A stretch of DNA of 36,865 nucleotides from a virus. Position 1 is the stretch's first letter. Each line of letters begins with the position of its first letter. This document shows positions 4,205 through 29,526 of the stretch, in pieces. Where the stretch lies: IMG/VR virus record IMGVR_UViG_3300020123_000146, positions 1 through 36,865 of that record; one strand, 5' to 3'. Under the pieces are notes generated by a model. That model worked only from the letters and a program-made list of their open reading frames with translations, had not been told where the DNA came from and did not search any database. Position numbers and translations under genes: made by a program.

Positions 4205-4452
4205 GCTGCTGGCCTTTCGTTGCGGGCGTGGGTGTCTGCTGCGCGGCGCGCGCAGCAGTGGGCGGGCATCTTGTCCAACCCGTCGACGCGGCCCATGCAC
4301 GGGCAGCCGAAGGCGGGGTCGGTGGGGCACCGCTTGCCGAGGTGGCAGCGGCACGGGTAGGTGCGGTGGGTGGGGATGCGGGCGACGAGCCACACGCCGA
4401 CGGGCGTGGTGGCGACGGGGCCGCCTTCCACGTTGGTGCGTTCCCGGGTCAT
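4201..4452 (-). CDS. Cys-rich small protein upstream of the VUT gene
   Basis: An 83-residue protein with eight Cys between residues 33 and 67: PCRCHLGKRC, FGCPCMGR and HCC. Together with neighbouring His this could bind one or two zinc ions. It overlaps both the VUT gene and the upstream small HTH gene by four bases. Its function is unknown. The position directly before the transporter and transglycosylase makes a link to DNA modification possible, but small Cys-rich proteins are common in actinophage early regions and I cannot tell the two apart. Confidence 0.6.
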   Translation of the reverse strand: MTRERTNVEGGPVATTPVGVWLVARIPTHRTYPCRCHLGKRCPTDPAFGCPCMGRVDGLDKMPAHCCARRAADTHARNERPAA

Positions 4453-4685
4453 GCCGCGCTCCGCCGCTGGCGCCAGTCGTGCCACAGCGCCGTTCGGAGC
4501 TTCGTGACGGTGAGGCCGGTCAGTTGCACGATCGCCTGCTGGGTGAGACCGGCCTCGACGAGCGCGGCAAGGACGGCGTTTCGTTCCGCCTTGGCCAGGC
4601 CGAGGTTGACCGTCAGCTGGTCGACCTGGTCGGCCGCGGCGGTGTATTCCATCATCAGCTCGTCGATGTCGGGGCGGCCGGTCAT
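4449..4685 (-). CDS. Small helical HTH-like protein
   Basis: A 78-residue, almost wholly helical protein. Residues 20-45 look like a helical hairpin, and residues 44-72 (EAGLTQQAIVQLTGLTVTKLRTAL) have the spacing of a helix-turn-helix. It probably binds DNA, but no family is recognised. It sits beside a second HTH gene upstream, with ATGA overlaps on both sides. Confidence 0.6.
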   Translation of the reverse strand: MTGRPDIDELMMEYTAAADQVDQLTVNLGLAKAERNAVLAALVEAGLTQQAIVQLTGLTVTKLRTALWHDWRQRRSAA

Positions 4686-6714: not shown

Positions 6715-7060
6715 CGTCGCCACCAACACCCCACGGGTCTTCGTACTCCTCACCGGCGGCCTGCATCTGGTCCTCGACCGTCGACGTATCAGGCTGCCGG
6801 CCACGCTCCAGCTCGAACCGGGACACGGGGGCCGTCGCCCACTGGCCGGCCACGCGCCGCACGATCTCCTCAGTGGTCGGGTGGATCGCGTAGATCGAAC
6901 CCGGCGACACCAGCTGAGTGCGCCCACCGTTCGGGCCGTCGATGCGCAAGAACCCGGCGCCGGCCACGGTCTGCTCGCGCACGTAGCCGGCGACGCGGCG
7001 GTGGCCAAGCATCTCCACAATGGACCAGCCGAGGTCGGCGGGTTCGGTGTTATCAGTCAA
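6707..7060 (-). CDS. Unknown early protein downstream of YqaJ
   Basis: A 117-residue protein with a beta-rich first half (GYVREQTVAGAGFLRID, residues 25-41, then QLVSPGSIYAIHPTTEE) and a very acidic tail. The start appears to be TTG at 7060, overlapping the exonuclease stop by eight bases, with GGAGG only three bases upstream; the next in-frame ATG would lose 16 residues. Similar short proteins with a VSPGSIYAI-type segment occur in actinophage early regions, but I know no function. Confidence 0.55.
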   Translation of the reverse strand: MTDNTEPADLGWSIVEMLGHRRVAGYVREQTVAGAGFLRIDGPNGGRTQLVSPGSIYAIHPTTEEIVRRVAGQWATAPVSRFELERGRQPDTSTVEDQMQAAGEEYEDPWGVGGDDD

Positions 7061-8138
7061 CGTCGTCCTCCGTCAGGCGCAGATCACGGGCAATGGCAAG
7101 CGTTCGGCCGGTCTTGTCGGCCACACAATCCGCGTACGCGTCCGGCCACACCTCAGCCAAGCGCGCTAGGTTCACGTCGGGGCGGCGGTTCTGCTCAAAG
7201 TAGGTCCACGCTGGCTCGCCCCGGCCCTGCTCGACCATGGCCGCCTCAGTGCCGTCGAGCAGGCGCACCATCTCAGCCTTCGCCGCACCCTTAGCGCGCT
7301 TGGCTGCGGCCTCGGCCAGCCGCGCCGTTTCGTAGTCGCTGATCAGGTTGTGGACGGTCAGGCCGTCCAGCCGGGCCGAGCCGGCCCGCACCGGGTGCAC
7401 CCGGTTGTCGAGGTCGACCAAGTCGTCGGCGTACGCCTCCACGTCGACCTCGGGCCGCTGGCCGCCGAGCACGCACCGGTTCCAGAAGTCGGCCACCGCG
7501 GCCACGATGTCCGCTTCGAGCGGCGGGTCTCGGCGCACCACGTACTGCCGGTAGTCGTTGCCGCCAATGAGGCAGGCGACGTGGGTGTGGTCGTATCCGG
7601 TGACGGCCATCTGCCACACCACTTGGGCGAGCACGTCGTCAGGAACGTTGCGGCGCCACCGTTTCGACACGAACGCGTTGCGGGTCTTGACCTCCAGCGA
7701 ACAGATGGTGCCGGTTGTCATCGCGGTGCGCGCACGCTGCGCCTCGGCCAGCGCGAGCGGGCACACGCCGACCTGACGGTCGAGGGTGCACAGCATCCAT
7801 GACCGGCTGGGCCACTCCCCAGCACCGGCGACGAGACCGACGCGACGCACCGTGGACCGATTGCGGCGGGCCCACTCCCGGGCCACCGTGTCCTCGTGCA
7901 GGCGTCCCCACAGGGCGGCCTCACCGGCGTCGTCGTCGGGCAGCCGGTCGCGCTTGTCGTACCACACGTGCAGGGCGGTGCGGTGCTCGGCGACGCCCAT
8001 GATGGCGGCCACGTCGGATGAGCCGATGCCGCGGCGGCGGGCGGCCAACCAGTCGCGCTCGGGCGCGTCGGCCGGCAGCACCCGGTACGCGTCCGGGGTG
8101 ACCCGGCGGCCGGGGGCGATCAGGGCGGGCTGCGTCAT
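7053..8138 (-). CDS. YqaJ/lambda-exonuclease family nuclease
   Basis: A 361-residue YqaJ-type recombinase nuclease that would resect double-strand ends to give ERF its single-stranded substrate. Motifs in order: RRGIGSSDVAAIMG (35-48), WGRLHEDTVAREW (77-89), the metal-binding Asp120, SLEVKTRN (147-154) with the E-x-K pair, and VLAQVVWQMAVTGYDHTHVACL (169-190) with the conserved glutamines. The C-terminal third has a helical region (EAAAKRAKGAAKAEMVRLL) found in the phage members. The ATG at 8138 overlaps the upstream gene. Length fits the family. Confidence 0.88.
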   Translation of the reverse strand: MTQPALIAPGRRVTPDAYRVLPADAPERDWLAARRRGIGSSDVAAIMGVAEHRTALHVWYDKRDRLPDDDAGEAALWGRLHEDTVAREWARRNRSTVRRVGLVAGAGEWPSRSWMLCTLDRQVGVCPLALAEAQRARTAMTTGTICSLEVKTRNAFVSKRWRRNVPDDVLAQVVWQMAVTGYDHTHVACLIGGNDYRQYVVRRDPPLEADIVAAVADFWNRCVLGGQRPEVDVEAYADDLVDLDNRVHPVRAGSARLDGLTVHNLISDYETARLAEAAAKRAKGAAKAEMVRLLDGTEAAMVEQGRGEPAWTYFEQNRRPDVNLARLAEVWPDAYADCVADKTGRTLAIARDLRLTEDDVD

Positions 8139-8320
8139 GGCCGCACCTCGACCCATTGGCCGGGGTGCTTCTGTTTGGCGGTGGCCCGCTTGACGAGGAT
8201 CTGCTTGCCCCCGCCGGCCGGGGTCACCCACTTCGTGCCGGCCTTCGGCCCGTCGCACCAGATCGCGCCCGACACCTTGTGGTCGCCGAAGTCGTAGTAG
8301 TCGATGAATGCGCCGCTCAC
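8135..8320 (-). CDS. Small unknown protein upstream of YqaJ
   Basis: A 61-residue basic protein beginning with GTG at 8320, which overlaps the upstream stop (GTGA). The first half is aromatic and acidic (FIDYYDFGDHKVSG); the second is Lys-rich (KQILVKRATAKQKHPGQW). It may bind nucleic acid, but no family is recognised. The ATGA overlap with YqaJ suggests they are made together. Confidence 0.55.
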   Translation of the reverse strand: MSGAFIDYYDFGDHKVSGAIWCDGPKAGTKWVTPAGGGKQILVKRATAKQKHPGQWVEVRP

Positions 8321-8622
8321 CGGTCTGCCCTCCGCACGGCTCGCGCGTCCTCGGCGATCTCGCACCGGGCGCACTCGGGCGGCGTGTCCGTCGGGCTGCC
8401 GCACACCACACAGCAGCAGCCCGGGCACGGTTCCAGGTGAACCATGCCGTCGGTTTCGCCCACCACCACGGCCTGATCGCCGTCGCACACCGGGCACACC
8501 GTGGGCAGCGGCACCTCACCCGGCAGGGGCAGGTGGTCGCGTTCGAACGCGGCCCGCTCGGCCGCCGGCATCTCCCGGTCGAGGTAGCGGCGGTACTGCT
8601 CGTCAACAGTTGGCTGGGTCAT
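8317..8622 (-). CDS. Small zinc-ribbon-like protein
   Basis: A 101-residue protein with a charged helical N-terminus and a Cys-rich second half: CPVCDG (43-48), CPGCCCVVCG (66-75) and CARCE (84-88). Three CxxC pairs suggest one or two zinc ribbons. Start is ATG at 8622 overlapping the upstream stop. Function unknown; such proteins are frequent in actinophage early operons. Confidence 0.6.
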   Translation of the reverse strand: MTQPTVDEQYRRYLDREMPAAERAAFERDHLPLPGEVPLPTVCPVCDGDQAVVVGETDGMVHLEPCPGCCCVVCGSPTDTPPECARCEIAEDARAVRRADR

Positions 8623-11447: not shown

Positions 11448-11708
11448 TCAGCTCTGACCGGCGTGTGCCATCGCGCGGGCGCCGCGCTTGCGGGTGGTGG
11501 CGGGCAGGAACGTGGCCACCGGCACACCCATGGCGGCGGCGAGTTTGTCCAGCTCGCTGGGGCGCCACTCGATGCGCAGGCGCATCCGCTTCCACACGGA
11601 CACCTGTGACAGGCCGATCTGCTCGCCCACCCAGCGCTGGGTGAGTCCTCGCTTGAGTACCTCACGCTCTACGTTGGCTGCGATCTCGTCGGCTGTCGTT
11701 GTCCGCAT
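11448..11708 (-). CDS. Small XRE/HTH regulator at the head of the early operon
   Basis: An 86-residue protein made essentially of one helix-turn-helix domain (EREVLKRGLTQRWVGEQIGLSQVSVWKRM, about residues 14-42), followed by a short basic tail. I chose ATG at 11708 because GAGAG lies ten bases upstream; an ATG at 11729 would add seven residues. It is the first gene of the leftward early operon and diverges from another HTH gene at 11812 with about 100 bases between. This is the usual cro/repressor geometry, so it is probably Cro-like or an early regulator, binding the inverted repeat just upstream. Confidence 0.7.
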   Translation of the reverse strand: MRTTTADEIAANVEREVLKRGLTQRWVGEQIGLSQVSVWKRMRLRIEWRPSELDKLAAAMGVPVATFLPATTRKRGARAMAHAGQS

Positions 11709-11716
11709 GGGCGGTA

Positions 11717-11743
11717 GACTCTCATGCATAGCGTTAGAGAGTC
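11717..11743. promoter_or_regulatory. Inverted repeat between divergent regulators
   Basis: GACTCTC at 11717-11723 and GAGAGTC at 11737-11743 form a perfect 7-bp inverted repeat with a 13-base spacer. It lies just upstream of the leftward HTH gene and about 70 bases before the rightward one. A TTGACT on the minus strand (11745-11740) overlaps its edge. It is a good operator candidate, although I see no convincing -10 element at the right spacing. Confidence 0.5.
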
Positions 11744-11811
11744 AAGGGCGTGACCGATTCGTCTGCGGGAAACGGTTGACTCAATCCCGTGAGGCAGTCA
11801 GGCTTATCGGT

Positions 11812-13232: not shown

Positions 13233-13481
13233 TCACGTTGGGGGATTGTCCGCCACGAATATGCCCGCACCGGGCACGCCTGTCACCCAGCCGACAGCTT
13301 TGAGACGGTCGACCGCGGTGCGGATGGTCTGCTGCGAGACCTCATAGTGCGCTCGCATCTCAGCTGCAGACGGCAGTTTTGAACCGGGTGGGTAAGTGCC
13401 GGAGCGTATGTGGTTGATGACATCCGTCATCACAAGATCAACTTTGCTGGTCACGTTCATCTCCCTGGCAGGTGATGACAT
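13233..13481 (-). CDS. Small GntR-family regulator (DNA-binding domain only)
   Basis: An 82-residue GntR winged-helix protein: VDLVMTDVINHIRSGTYPPGSKLPS, then AAEMRAHYEVSQQTIRTAVDRLKAVGWV and the wing GVPGAGIFV. It has no effector-binding domain, so it is about a third of the usual GntR length. Such minimal proteins are frequent in actinophages and in Streptomyces plasmids (KorA-like controls). I chose ATG at 13481 with GGAGG nine bases upstream; an ATG at 13460 is the alternative. Two matching sites, one overlapping this start and one 53 bases upstream, suggest it represses itself. Confidence 0.75.
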   Translation of the reverse strand: MSSPAREMNVTSKVDLVMTDVINHIRSGTYPPGSKLPSAAEMRAHYEVSQQTIRTAVDRLKAVGWVTGVPGAGIFVADNPPT

Positions 13482-13489
13482 GTGATCAC
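13472..13489. promoter_or_regulatory. Operator candidate overlapping the gntR start
   Basis: An 18-base near-palindrome (GTGAT...ATCAC) containing GATGACATGTGATCA at 13474-13488. It shares 13 of 15 bases with the site at 13534-13548 read on the other strand (GATGACAnGTGATnA). It covers the gntR start codon, a position suited to autorepression. Confidence 0.5.
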
Positions 13490-13529
13490 ACCTCCTCCCC
13501 CCGGTCAACGCACCGCAAGTACTTGACTA

Positions 13530-13553
13530 CCTATCATCACCTGTCATCATAGG
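13530..13553. promoter_or_regulatory. Second GntR operator candidate with -35-like box
   Basis: A 24-base partial palindrome with CCTAT and ATAGG ends. On the minus strand it holds GATGACAGGTGATGA, the partner of the site at the gntR start. A TTGACT at 13523-13528 on the plus strand precedes it, and a weak -10 would fall inside it, so binding could also control the rightward gene at 13718. Confidence 0.5.
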
Positions 13554-13717
13554 TTGGCCACCGTCGCTCCCTGGCAGGGTCCGGCGGAGGCACCTCGGAC
13601 GCGGCGCTCGTGGGGCGTCTGCGTCCGAGGCCCGGGGTTGGCGCCGGGGGTGCGCGCACAGGGTCCGCGCCCTCGGCTGCCCGACCTATCAGCCTCAACC
13701 TGTCGGAGGCACACAGC

Positions 13718-14527: not shown

Positions 14528-14938
14528 CTAGGCCTGTTCGGACCGACCCACCGGCGGCGGGTACGCGCGGTTGAACGCCTCCACCATCGACAGCAGCGCC
14601 CTGGCAGCGCTGATATTCGACCGCGGGCGCGCGCCAGCGGCCACCAGGTCGCTCGTGACACGGTCGAGGTCGGCATGCCAGTTGGCCAGGCGCTCGGCGG
14701 CGTCGATGAGCTGGCGCAACTGTCGTAACGGGATCACGCCGGCTTCGGCCAGCTCGGCCCGCACCTCGGCCCGCTCGGCCTCGTCCGCGTCGGGCCACCG
14801 CTTCGCCAGGCGCCGGGCCAGCCCGGCCGGCCCGTTTACCGCTGCGGCGGCGGCGCGCCGGGTGGCAAGCGCCTCAGCGTCGCCGCTAGCCCCGCTCGGC
14901 ACGGACCCGGATTTGCGCAAGGGGGCAGTCATCGTCAC
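14528..14938 (-). CDS. Unknown protein, paralogue of its upstream neighbour
   Basis: A 136-residue helical protein. Its segment ATRRAAAAAVNGPAGLARRLAKRWPD...EAERAEVRAELAEAGV (about residues 25-68) closely matches the equivalent part of the gene just upstream, so the two arose by duplication. I favour GTG at 14938 because AGGAG lies seven bases upstream; ATG at 14932 is close behind. It overlaps its neighbour by 53 bases. The C-terminal half, with another set of helices, differs from the paralogue. Function unknown. Confidence 0.6.
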   Translation of the reverse strand: MTMTAPLRKSGSVPSGASGDAEALATRRAAAAAVNGPAGLARRLAKRWPDADEAERAEVRAELAEAGVIPLRQLRQLIDAAERLANWHADLDRVTSDLVAAGARPRSNISAARALLSMVEAFNRAYPPPVGRSEQA

Positions 14939-15383
14939 AGATCAGCTCCTGGCACATGGGGCAGGAGACTGAGGCTAGATCGGCCGGGTTGAGCAGGGCC
15001 GGGTTCTCGACCTCGACGGCGAGGGCGTACAGGTCGGCGGGGGCCCGGTCGTCATCGGACCAACCGGCGAGTTGGCGGAGGGTCCTTGCGACGGCAGTGA
15101 CTACGGCCTCGGCCAGCGGCGGCGGCGTGATGCCGGCCCCGGCGAGGATGGCGCGGACCTCCGCCTGCTCGGCTTCACCCAGATCGGGCCAGGGCTTCGC
15201 GATCCGCCGGGCCAGGCCAGCCGGGCCATTCACCGCGGCGGCGGCCTTGCGCCGGGCGGCGAGCGCGTCGTCTGGCTCGCGGTTCGCCCAGCTCGTCTGG
15301 CCGCCCTCCGACTGTGCCGCGCGTCGCGCTAGGGCGGCTTCGCGCGCCTCGATCCGCCTCTGTGCTGCCTTCGTGATGGCCAT
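14886..15383 (-). CDS. Unknown protein with duplicated N-terminal domain and Cys tail
   Basis: A 165-residue protein. Its basic N-terminus (ITKAAQRRIEAREAALARRAA) is followed by AARRKAAAAVNGPAGLARRIAKPWPD...EVRAILAGAGI, shared with the downstream paralogue. The C-terminus has SCPMCQELICDDDCPLAQ, four Cys in a likely zinc site, which the paralogue lacks. The promoter must lie between 15384 and about 15440, next to the CTTAGCGCGCTAGG-type sites, so it is probably controlled by the same regulator as the divergent gene. Confidence 0.6.
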   Translation of the reverse strand: MAITKAAQRRIEAREAALARRAAQSEGGQTSWANREPDDALAARRKAAAAVNGPAGLARRIAKPWPDLGEAEQAEVRAILAGAGITPPPLAEAVVTAVARTLRQLAGWSDDDRAPADLYALAVEVENPALLNPADLASVSCPMCQELICDDDCPLAQIRVRAERG

Positions 15384-15401
15384 GCGCCGATGGTCGCGCG
15401 G

Positions 15402-15413
15402 TTAGCGCGCTGA
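15402..15413. promoter_or_regulatory. Operator-like site A (imperfect)
   Basis: TTAGCGCGCTGA, a variant of the palindrome found in sites B, C and D, with two changes at the right end. It lies 19 bases upstream of the minus-strand gene starting at 15383, where it could block that gene's promoter. Confidence 0.45.
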
Positions 15414-15438
15414 GTCAAGCTCGACCCGCCCAAGAAAC

Positions 15439-15450
15439 TTAGCGCGCTAG
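15439..15450. promoter_or_regulatory. Operator-like site B
   Basis: TTAGCGCGCTAG with a 10-bp perfect palindromic core (TAGCGCGCTA). It lies immediately upstream of the -35 box of the rightward promoter. The surrounding CTTAGCGCGCTAGG is identical in sites C and D; B and C are 23 bases apart centre to centre. Confidence 0.65.
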
Positions 15451-15452
15451 GC

Positions 15453-15481
15453 TTGCTCGACTTAGCGCGCTAGGGTATAGT
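15453..15481 (+). promoter_or_regulatory. Rightward promoter with operator in the spacer
   Basis: TTGCTC at 15453-15458 and TATAGT at 15476-15481 are separated by exactly 17 bases, a near-consensus sigma-70-type promoter and the best in the window. Site C occupies the spacer, so a protein bound there would exclude RNA polymerase. Transcription would begin near 15488. Confidence 0.7.
15462..15473. promoter_or_regulatory. Operator-like site C in the promoter spacer
   Basis: TTAGCGCGCTAG, fully inside the 17-base spacer of the promoter at 15453-15481. The position is the classic one for repression. The binding protein is not known; candidates in the window are the regulators at 11812, 11448 and 16550. 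Confidence 0.65.
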
Positions 15482-15487
15482 GGTAGC

Positions 15488-15849
15488 TAGAAGGACAACT
15501 ACAGAGCACAGACCACTAGCCAGAAACCGGGACCCGCAAGGGCAGCAGGAGGGCTATCGGGAAACACCCCGCCAGCGCGCGGGTTGCCGAACCCCCCAAC
15601 ACCCGCACGCGAGTCGAGGCCAGGGATGCACACGCAAGGCGCCGGGTCAGCCGGCCGCCGGATGTGCCGCTCGCTGGTCCGGTGGACGTGCCGCGAGTGA
15701 GGCGGCCGGGACGGCAGGCACCAAACACGATCCCCTCCATCACGGTGGCGGCGCGACCCCCGATCGAGACACAGGCTCTCGGGTGCGAGCGCGCAGCACG
15801 CCGCGGCGGGCCGGCATTCAGCCGGCCCGACAAGTCCTCTGGAGGGGAC
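15488..15849 (+). promoter_or_regulatory. Long 5' leader with hairpin before the ribosome site
   Basis: About 360 bases separate the predicted start of transcription from the ATG at 15850. Near its end GGGCCGGC (15808-15815) and GCCGGCCC (15821-15828) form a perfect 8-bp hairpin with an ATTCA loop. A second small pairing (GTCC 15834-15837, GGAC 15846-15849) covers the GGAGGGG ribosome site. A GTG-started frame runs through this stretch at 15480 but has no ribosome site and shadows the real gene further on. The leader could be regulatory; apart from these elements I see no gene in it. Confidence 0.45.
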
Positions 15850-16419
15850 ATGAACGTCAAGGTTGCTGCGTGGATCAAGGGCATCGTCACTGCGGTGTCG
15901 GTTGGGATCCTCGTGTACGTCGCGCTCGTGAGCAGGGACCACATCACGCACATCGGCCAGCTGATGAACCTGGAGAGCTACCAGGCAAAGACGCTGTTCG
16001 TGCTGATCGACCTGCCGGCCCTGGTCGGCAAGGTGCTGCAGCTCCCCGTGTTCGCCCACTCCACCCGGAAGTTCGGTCGCAAACTGACCTACTTCTCGGG
16101 CGGGCTGAGCTTGGCTTGCAACGTGATCGCCGGCTTCGTCGCCGGTGGCTACGGGCCGGCCGCCTACGGGGTGTTCATCGTGATCATGTTCCTGATCATG
16201 GAGACGGCCATCATGAAGATCAAGCCGGCCGCCGCGGTGACCAAGGCCAAGCGGTCCGCCAAGGCTGCCAGCGCCGCCCCGGCCAAGCCGAAGGCGACAA
16301 GCACCGCCCGCAAGTGCGCCCCCGGGTGCACCTGTGGCAAGCACAACCGCGCCGCCAACATCGCCCCGGTCAGCCCGGGCGTTGGCCCGATCGGCACCTA
16401 CGCCGGCCGGAAGGCGTGA
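15850..16419 (+). CDS. Multi-span membrane protein with Lys/Ala-rich tail
   Basis: A 189-residue protein starting at an ATG preceded by GGAGGGG. Four hydrophobic segments lie at about 10-27, 48-66, 80-100 and 105-124. A Lys/Ala/Pro-rich stretch (127-154) follows, then a CAPGCTCGKH Cys cluster near 157-165 and a short Gly-rich end. The first half loosely resembles the DUF2637 group of actinobacterial plasmid membrane proteins. It stands alone between a tightly operator-covered promoter and a strong terminator. Expression during either lysogeny or infection is possible; superinfection exclusion is a reasonable guess, without proof. Confidence 0.6.
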   Translation: MNVKVAAWIKGIVTAVSVGILVYVALVSRDHITHIGQLMNLESYQAKTLFVLIDLPALVGKVLQLPVFAHSTRKFGRKLTYFSGGLSLACNVIAGFVAGGYGPAAYGVFIVIMFLIMETAIMKIKPAAAVTKAKRSAKAASAAPAKPKATSTARKCAPGCTCGKHNRAANIAPVSPGVGPIGTYAGRKA

Positions 16420-16473
16420 CGAACGAGCAGCCCGGACCAGCGGTCCGGTAAGCCGCTCGGTACGGTAGAAAGT

Positions 16474-16515
16474 GCGCGGCACCCGTCTTACCGGCGGGTG
16501 CCGCGCCCTTTTTTT
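16474..16515 (+). terminator. Rho-independent terminator of the membrane protein gene
   Basis: GCGCGGCACCCG (16474-16485) and CGGGTGCCGCGC (16495-16506) make a perfect 12-bp stem with a 9-base loop, followed by CC and seven T. It is a textbook intrinsic terminator for the rightward transcript. A second small hairpin, GTGGGA/TCCCAC at 16525-16540, lies just beyond and may serve the opposite strand. Confidence 0.92.
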
Positions 16516-16541
16516 GTGCCCATCGTGGGAACGCTCCCACC

Positions 16542-16553
16542 TTAGCGCGCTAG
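16542..16553. promoter_or_regulatory. Operator-like site D at the end of the XRE gene
   Basis: TTAGCGCGCTAG with the same 14-base context as sites B and C, 1.1 kb away. It includes the stop codon of the minus-strand XRE gene and lies just past the terminator. No promoter is seen here, so it resembles the dispersed stoperator sites of some mycobacteriophages, or may allow DNA looping. Confidence 0.6.
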
Positions 16554-17269
16554 GCCTCCGGCGGTCGCCGGTTGTACTCCTCCAACGTCGCCAACGCCGT
16601 CGACGCCTCCTGAAAGGTCAGATCCCACGGACCCGTGTTCACGTCCATGCTCCGACCGAACCCCACCCACTTGCCCGACAGCCGACGCCCCGTCGGATCG
16701 GCCAGCAGCTGCACCGCCCCCTGATACCGGGCGCCCCGGTAGTAGCCCGTCCGGGCCGTCACCTCCACCCAGGTGCCGGTGACCACGCTGCCGTCAACGG
16801 TCAGGTCCATGGTCAGCTCGCCATCGGCCGAGCCCGGCATCGACCGCACCGTGACCCGGTCGCCCTGGTGCAGCAGCAGCACGTAGTGCAGCCCGATGAA
16901 CGACGCGCCCCGGCTGCTACTCGGGTACTCGTACTGGCTGAGCCACACCCCGCTGTACCGCCCGGGCAGCGCCGCCGCAGCTGGCTGCGGTGCGAGGCCG
17001 ACCGGCTCGGCTCCGGCCGCCGCCGGTGGCACCGGCGGTCGGAACCCCAGCGACGCGATGGGCAGCCCGGTGGCCGCCTCCAACGCACGGGCGTACACCG
17101 GCCGCGGGTAGCCGACGGCCCCGGCCTCCCACCGCTGCACGTGCCGTTTGCTGCAGTCGTTCGGCTCGCCCATGCGGGTGCCCGCGTCTCGCACTGCCCG
17201 GGCCAGGTCGTCCTGCGACATGAGCAGTGAGGCCCGCACCGCCCGCAGGGTGCTGTTCGGCTCGGTCAC
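16550..17269 (-). CDS. XRE regulator with beta-rich C-terminal domain
   Basis: A 239-residue protein. The N-terminal helix-turn-helix is about residues 5-65 (LRAVRASLLMSQDDLARAVRDAG, then SKRHVQRWEAGAVGYPRPVYARALEAATG). After a Pro/Ala linker (about 78-102) comes a domain of repeated strands: SGVWLSQYEYPSSSR, LHYVLLLHQGDRVTVRSMPG, VVTGTWVEVTARTGYYRGA and LSGKWVGFGRSMDVNTGPW. This architecture is common among Streptomyces and Micromonosporaceae regulators of unknown ligand; the strands look like a small barrel. GTG at 17269 follows GGAGG seven bases upstream. It is a candidate binder of the CTTAGCGCGCTAGG sites, one of which overlaps its own stop. Confidence 0.72.
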   Translation of the reverse strand: MTEPNSTLRAVRASLLMSQDDLARAVRDAGTRMGEPNDCSKRHVQRWEAGAVGYPRPVYARALEAATGLPIASLGFRPPVPPAAAGAEPVGLAPQPAAAALPGRYSGVWLSQYEYPSSSRGASFIGLHYVLLLHQGDRVTVRSMPGSADGELTMDLTVDGSVVTGTWVEVTARTGYYRGARYQGAVQLLADPTGRRLSGKWVGFGRSMDVNTGPWDLTFQEASTALATLEEYNRRPPEA

Positions 17270-28612: not shown

Positions 28613-29050
28613 TCAGCCCTCCGTGGTCTCGTTGTCGACTGCCGGCTCGGCGGCCTCCGGCTCCGCGGCGGCCTCCGGCTCGGCCGCGGCGGCCTGGTCG
28701 TCGTCGTCGCCCGGCAGCGGCCGGACCCGGTCCACGAGGCCGGCGTGCAGGTAGCCGTGAGCGGCCACATTGGACACGGGCACCGGGTGGCCGGCCAGGA
28801 ACGCCAGGGCAGTGCCGTGGGGGATGTCCTGGTTGGCGATGTAGGTGCCGTACTCGATCCGCTGCACGATCCGCATCTCGTCCAGGGTCAGCGTGTTGGC
28901 CACCTGGATAGCGCGCTCGTCCGCGGTCAGCGGGCGATGCCCACCCGCGTCGGGCGTGAGCCGCGAATACAGCTCATCTAGCGCGCTCAGCTTCGCGGCG
29001 ATCTCCGGGTGCGTCACTGCCACCTCGGCCGCCAGGGCGTTTGACTGCAC
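28613..29050 (-). CDS. Unknown structural-region protein with acidic tail
   Basis: A 145-residue protein. I chose GTG at 29050 because GAGGGG lies five bases upstream; an ATG at 29065 adds five residues. The N-terminal 100 residues are helical (AALAAEVAVTHPEIAAKLSALDELYSRL type pattern), and the tail is a low-complexity Ala/Glu/Pro stretch. It sits between the gp10-like gene and the tail tube gene, where some phages carry a tail-tube-linked or scaffold accessory protein. Confidence 0.58.
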   Translation of the reverse strand: MQSNALAAEVAVTHPEIAAKLSALDELYSRLTPDAGGHRPLTADERAIQVANTLTLDEMRIVQRIEYGTYIANQDIPHGTALAFLAGHPVPVSNVAAHGYLHAGLVDRVRPLPGDDDDQAAAAEPEAAAEPEAAEPAVDNETTEG

Positions 29051-29061
29051 CGGTTCCCCTC

Positions 29062-29526
29062 TCATGGTGTGCTCTTCTTGGGCTTGGGCTTACGTTTCGT
29101 GCCGCCGTAGTACTTGCTGTTGAACTGCCCCGTCTTCGTGAACAGCTCTTTGCGGCTGCGCCGTTTCAGGGCCTTGGCGTTGCTGCGGCGGGTCCCGAAT
29201 TGGCTGTCTCCGGCCACCTCGGCCACGTCGCGCAAGCCCTGTTCAAGAAAGTGCTGGGCGGGCAGATAGACGGTTCCCTCGTCCTGAAACCGCATGTAGT
29301 ACCGGTCGGTGCTCCAGCTGACGCGGGCCGTCCACCCCACCGTTTCCTCGACCGGTTCGGCGTGGATGCTCTCCGCGCCCGCCCCGGTGCGCCGCGGCGC
29401 GTGCCCCGCAGCGTTGCCGGCGACCAGGTCGCCGAACTCCAACATGCGATCCTTCACCCACGGCTCGTGGGTGATCGCTCGCAGGCCGGCGTGGTCGAGC
29501 ACGACGGACACGGCAGCGTCGGACAT
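29062..29526 (-). CDS. HK97 gp10-like head-tail joining protein
   Basis: A 154-residue protein with the pattern of the HK97 gp10 / phi13 gp19 family: a helix (LRAITHEPWVKDRMLEFGDLVAGNAA), then HAPRRTGAGAESIH (about 34-47), VGWTARVSWSTDRYYMRFQDEGT and PAQHFLEQGL. A Lys-rich C-terminal extension (KKSTP end) is longer than usual. ATG at 29526 overlaps the upstream stop (TGATG). It helps seal head to tail. Confidence 0.78.
   Translation of the reverse strand: MSDAAVSVVLDHAGLRAITHEPWVKDRMLEFGDLVAGNAAGHAPRRTGAGAESIHAEPVEETVGWTARVSWSTDRYYMRFQDEGTVYLPAQHFLEQGLRDVAEVAGDSQFGTRRSNAKALKRRSRKELFTKTGQFNSKYYGGTKRKPKPKKSTP

Follow-up and report, generated by a model that had tools for sequence, protein, structure and literature searches.

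A palindrome array over a divergent promoter pair, with further copies inside an early gene, in a temperate phage of actinobacteria

We analyzed the 36,865-base virus record IMGVR_UViG_3300020123_000146 (70% GC) over its whole length, hereafter the window. It encodes an integrase, XRE and GntR regulators, a RecE-like exonuclease, and ERF and RusA recombination proteins, together with capsid, portal, and terminase, and represents a temperate tailed phage with an actinobacterial host. Micromonosporaceae relatives of one window gene suggest, without proving it, that the host is near that family. Proteins encoded at 11448 (XRE), 11812 (XRE), 13233 (GntR), and 16550 (XRE) are DNA-binding by profile; these four and the product of 4682 are helix-turn-helix (HTH) proteins of the window, besides a small candidate encoded at 4449–4685(−). 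The lysogeny-type regulators are located away from a group of palindromes at 15402–15473, which we describe here.

The palindromes lie between two divergent genes, 14886–15383(−) and 15850–16419(+). A sequence-only reading of this DNA had reported these genes, two copies of a palindrome at 15439 and 15462, and a variant at 15402, all of which we confirmed. We refer to the sites, all on the plus strand, as O1 (TTAGCGCGCTGA, with two mismatches; 15402–15413), O2 (TTAGCGCGCTAG; 15439–15450), and O3 (TTAGCGCGCTAG; 15462–15473). The same reading was also correct that O3 fills the 17-nt spacer between TTGCTC (15453–15458) and TATAGT (15476–15481), which form the rightward promoter PR (15453–15481(+)). 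It had called this promoter near-consensus, which holds for the −10 hexamer (5/6 positions) but not for the −35 hexamer (3/6), and a stricter consensus scan lists none. A feature that it did not contain is that O1 occupies the 17-nt spacer of a putative leftward promoter, PL (15390–15418(−)), consisting on the other strand of TTGACT (15418–15413) and a weak −10, GACCAT (15395–15390). With the ATG at 15383 six bases further on, PL would give a leaderless transcript of the gene starting there, judging from the spacing of these elements. Such leaderless starts are frequent among actinobacteria. Thus, each divergent promoter has one operator in its spacer, while O2 lies between them, just 5′ of the PR −35.

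The leftward gene (14886–15383(−)) encodes a 165-amino-acid protein of unassigned function; searches of phages, plasmids, and 396 genomes from the phylum gave no homologs of it. It has a segment in common with the neighboring 14528–14938 (AAAAVNGPAGLARR..AKxWPD), an apparent tandem duplication, and this segment had no relatives in the collections searched. In Pfam and PHROGs, no DNA-binding family matched 14886–15383 or 15850–16419.

A fourth copy of TTAGCGCGCTAG, exact over 12 bases and missing from the earlier reading, is present at 16542–16553(+), past the terminator of the rightward unit, where it overlaps the TAG that terminates the XRE gene 16550–17269(−). The exact copies therefore number three (15439, 15462, and 16542) and, with the 15402 variant, all fall inside 1.2 kb. 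The core of the site, TAGCGCGCTA, is perfectly palindromic in three copies; the spacing of O1–O3 is irregular (23 and 37 bp). When up to two mismatches were allowed on both strands, the record contained 13 matches, whereas 100 shuffles averaged 1.41 and never exceeded 5. The sites are very probably transcriptional operators of some protein. Their position, repetition, and statistics bear out one part of an earlier proposal, that of a compact genetic switch, namely operators arrayed across divergent promoters. The evidence does not extend to a decision circuit with two regulators, since both divergent genes lack DNA-binding matches. What we see is likely to be a pair of divergent promoters under repressor control, accompanied by a few additional sites, and "switch" is too strong a word for it.

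Using a profile built from the four sites at 15402–16553, we scanned the whole record, with all other matches serving as held-out sites. In sixty order-2 Markov genomes, the maximum score was 15.8 and the 95% level was 14.2. Two held-out matches, CTAGCGCGCTTG (7158–7169(−), score 18.8) and TTAGCGCGCTTG (7291–7302(+), score 19.8), are both inside the RecE-like exonuclease gene (7053–8606(−), a frame whose true start is further in; PHROG 434, E = 4.7e-68). A marginal match, TGAGCGCGCTAG (28978–28989(−)), in gene 28613–29065(−), scored 14.0, on a par with the 95% level, and may be due to chance. The earlier reading contained none of these three. Matches at 28908 and 1592 had little in common with the sites outside the core.

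We considered whether coding sequence gave rise to the matches at 7158, 7291, and 28978 by coincidence, such that functional sites occur only in the 15.4–16.6 kb cluster. The residues encoded at the intragenic sites are ordinary (NLARLAE and AKRAKG), a single match as strong as those at 7158 and 7291 arose in 0.9% of synonymous-codon shuffles of the coding genes, and the 28978 match falls within the null. However, two of the matches are in one gene, a pair of this strength was never seen (0/1500 shuffles), and both are spelled with uncommon codons (CTA, TTG, and GCT), and we regard coincidence as a somewhat unlikely explanation. Perfect 16-bp palindromes also occur inside early genes (ACCGGGTGCACCCGGT, ACGCGCAGCTGCGCGT, and CACCCAGCGCTGGGTG, at 7390, 9688, and 11628).

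The rightward transcript has a leader of ~360 nt (15488–15849(+), from its predicted start), the first ~100 nt of which are conserved in Micromonosporaceae. The stretch at 15494–15590 is 88–89% identical, over ~90–105 nt, to the leaders at two loci (L104 and L109) of a single Micromonosporaceae genome, each with a DUF2637-like gene next downstream. Because the conserved stretch starts ~13 nt past the PR −10, it supports PR independently as a promoter. The leader matched no known RNA family in Rfam and folded no better than shuffles (z −0.64); it is a possible conserved cis-acting RNA. The gene that follows, 15850–16419(+), encodes a 189-amino-acid membrane protein related to DUF2637-type proteins (E down to 4e-16), which itself scores below the threshold of the Pfam DUF2637 model. 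Relatives of this protein are present in 5 of 250 Micromonosporaceae genomes, and all three relatives tested pass the Pfam cutoff. A conserved unit of leader and DUF2637-type membrane gene is found in the window. The unit ends in an intrinsic terminator (16474–16515(+)), composed of GCGCGGCACCCG / CGGGTGCCGCGC and then a T run.

Since the membrane-protein unit is bounded by a promoter and a terminator of its own, as moron-like cargo would be, and relatives of the protein are located in bacterial genomes, which also fits such cargo, we asked if a host regulator could bind the palindromes and turn on the unit in the lysogen upon host signals. This explanation gives no reason for two sites inside a phage replication/recombination gene. 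Moreover, the pattern of paired TAGCGCGCTA cores is rare, occurring in 47 places in 84,980 genomes, many of which adjoin other regulators. We consider a host regulator very unlikely.

Conservation of the sites in related phages had been suggested as a check on the palindromes, and for the sequence its outcome was negative. The nearest relatives found, none of them close, do not have the sites. They were absent wherever we found relatives of the portal protein, the integrase, or XRE 16550, including twelve phages with XRE-16550 relatives (53–62% identity) and a locus related to the window in its integrase, XRE, and GntR genes (L037). What is conserved is the leader with its downstream gene, which elsewhere has a different palindrome set. 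In viral contigs, the exact 14-mer CTTAGCGCGCTAGG was present at 20 loci of mixed composition and no common context, which we judged to be chance. As a marker of kinship in viral and bacterial genomes, TAGCGCGCTA pairs were also rejected, as mostly unrelated regulators lay alongside; the presence of the core palindrome near unrelated regulators elsewhere is thus no proof of kinship. A literature search for the palindrome sequence yielded no operator report among titles and abstracts. In Alphaproteobacteria, paired GTAGCGCGCTAC palindromes precede similar small genes (L050 29–63, L070 3387–3421, and L073 6593–6623) whose products, of the MPRTKRKP..KFQRYR type, we take to be MazE-like antitoxins. 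Their use of the same core is apparently unrelated to the phage sites.

At the locus designated L101/L104 (two labels for one place), three copies of another palindrome stand before the same leader, and the divergent gene encodes a 70-amino-acid protein that by inspection has a long helix and a C-terminal HTH. Small proteins of coiled-coil/HTH build are likewise encoded divergently to the membrane gene at L103 and L099. Searching with the L103 protein identified relatives with clustered palindromes before their own genes: CCTAGTACTAGG in L140 (the L103 gene itself), GCCTAGCGCTAGGC in L141, TAAAGNNNTTTGCAT-like repeats in L142 and L146, and CCCAACGTTGGG in L144. A repeat statistic was significant for 4/8 upstream regions (those not picked by the TAGCGCGCTA pattern), compared to 0/7 controls; L141 fell below significance, although its overlapping palindromes are plain by eye. 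At L045 and L047/L094, which were found by the TAGCGCGCTA pair alone, sites are located at the promoters of similarly built small HTH proteins. DUF2637 genes sampled across the host family were mostly of another build, with no clear divergent small HTH gene.

A profile of nine of these small HTH proteins ranked 4449–4685(−) first of 494 window frames (E = 0.0012). This gene encodes a 78-amino-acid protein with a predicted coiled coil and C-terminal HTH, and a single-sequence structure model of low confidence, with four helices, fits that build. With an independent seven-member profile that excluded the pattern-found loci, 4449–4685 was short of significance. The gene is 10.7 kb from the 15.4-kb cluster, and the sites nearest to it, at 7158 and 7291, are 2.5 kb upstream. 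In favor of its product as the binder are the small HTH gene divergent to the same leader at L101 and the repeated palindromes at the relatives' own promoters; against it are the position of the relatives' small HTH gene, which adjoins its operators while 4449 is distant, and the presence of the other HTH proteins in the window. We therefore name the 4449–4685(−) product only tentatively as the putative binder of the palindromes.

The sequence-only reading had instead proposed the proteins encoded at 11448, 11812, 13233, and 16550, none of which gained support, with 4449–4685(−) ranking best. One of these XRE or GntR proteins could still bind the operators, for instance in the role of an immunity repressor whose sites are dispersed, as known for mycobacteriophages (PMC9283540). 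All four have the DNA-binding profile matches, and the 16542 site overlaps the XRE 16550 stop codon. In contrast, no copy of the site is present in the 11730–11811 intergenic region of the XRE pair, the GntR gene has different repeats of its own upstream, and the sites are missing both from the twelve phages with XRE-16550 relatives and from L037. Binding by an XRE or GntR protein is thus unlikely in our estimation. The repeats upstream of the GntR gene are AGGTGATGACATGTGATCACACCT and CTATCATCACCTGTCATCATAGG (13471–13560) and are probably its autoregulatory sites. Between the divergent XRE genes, at 11710–11810, we noted an inverted repeat, GACTCTC-N13-GAGAGTC, likely an immunity operator distinct from TTAGCGCGCTAG.

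As a whole, the observations are best explained by a model, in which our confidence is moderate, that the palindromes serve as operators for a repressor that the phage itself encodes, the likeliest binder being the 4449 product. The sites, their excess over chance, the geometry of the promoters, and the conservation of the leader are observed, and from these we infer binding, repression, a roadblock, and which protein binds. Repressor bound to O1 and O3 in the promoter spacers and to O2 between them would turn both promoters off, silencing the leaderless gene 14886–15383 and the rightward unit of conserved leader, DUF2637-type membrane protein, and terminator. On the copies in the exonuclease gene, repressor may act as a roadblock that hinders elongation through the early genes. 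The exonuclease gene is upstream of 4449 within a leftward early-gene run. Since 4449 is 3′ of the exonuclease gene in this run, the intragenic sites are placed to lower its transcription, if bound protein blocks elongation, and the repressor could limit its own synthesis.

A broader proposal is that the leader and membrane gene form a conserved unit that is re-addressed by exchanging a cassette of palindrome set and small coiled-coil/HTH repressor; in the window, the repressor would have moved to the early operon, with intragenic palindromes throttling its own transcript. We regard this proposal as speculative and quite unlikely. The layout of the operator array is ordinary for gene regulation. 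The points of interest are that copies lie inside a gene, that the leader is conserved while its operators are exchanged, and that a specific, testable repressor candidate can be named. If the repressor model is right, it names a candidate repressor overlooked by ordinary annotation, provides a small control circuit amenable to testing in phages whose host group has seen little work on regulation, and adds a further case of palindromic operators inside phage genes, a place to test roadblock control. The conserved leader that precedes genes of the DUF2637 type may itself be a regulatory RNA.

In lambda-type switches, three operators lie over two divergent promoters. The window shares this arrangement, but its divergent genes are not recognizable repressors and its site spacing is irregular; by its flanking genes, the array is not a lambda-type repressor pair. 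In the L5-type system of cluster A mycobacteriophages, stoperators are asymmetric 13-bp sites oriented with transcription, which number >20 at promoters and in short intergenic spaces and, when in transcribed DNA, stop elongation once bound (PMC9283540). The window resembles this system in that a temperate actinophage carries one sequence several times, both at promoters and within transcribed DNA. However, its site is palindromic, six firm sites and one marginal site are present, two of the six are inside a gene, and we saw no L5-type repressor in the window. By the features tested, the array is not an L5-type stoperator system. The L101/L104 and L103 loci have another palindrome sequence and an adjacent regulator gene, which in the window would be distant if it is 4449. 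Like the window, they have a divergent promoter with repeated palindromes before a related membrane gene, and the L104 leader is nearly the same.
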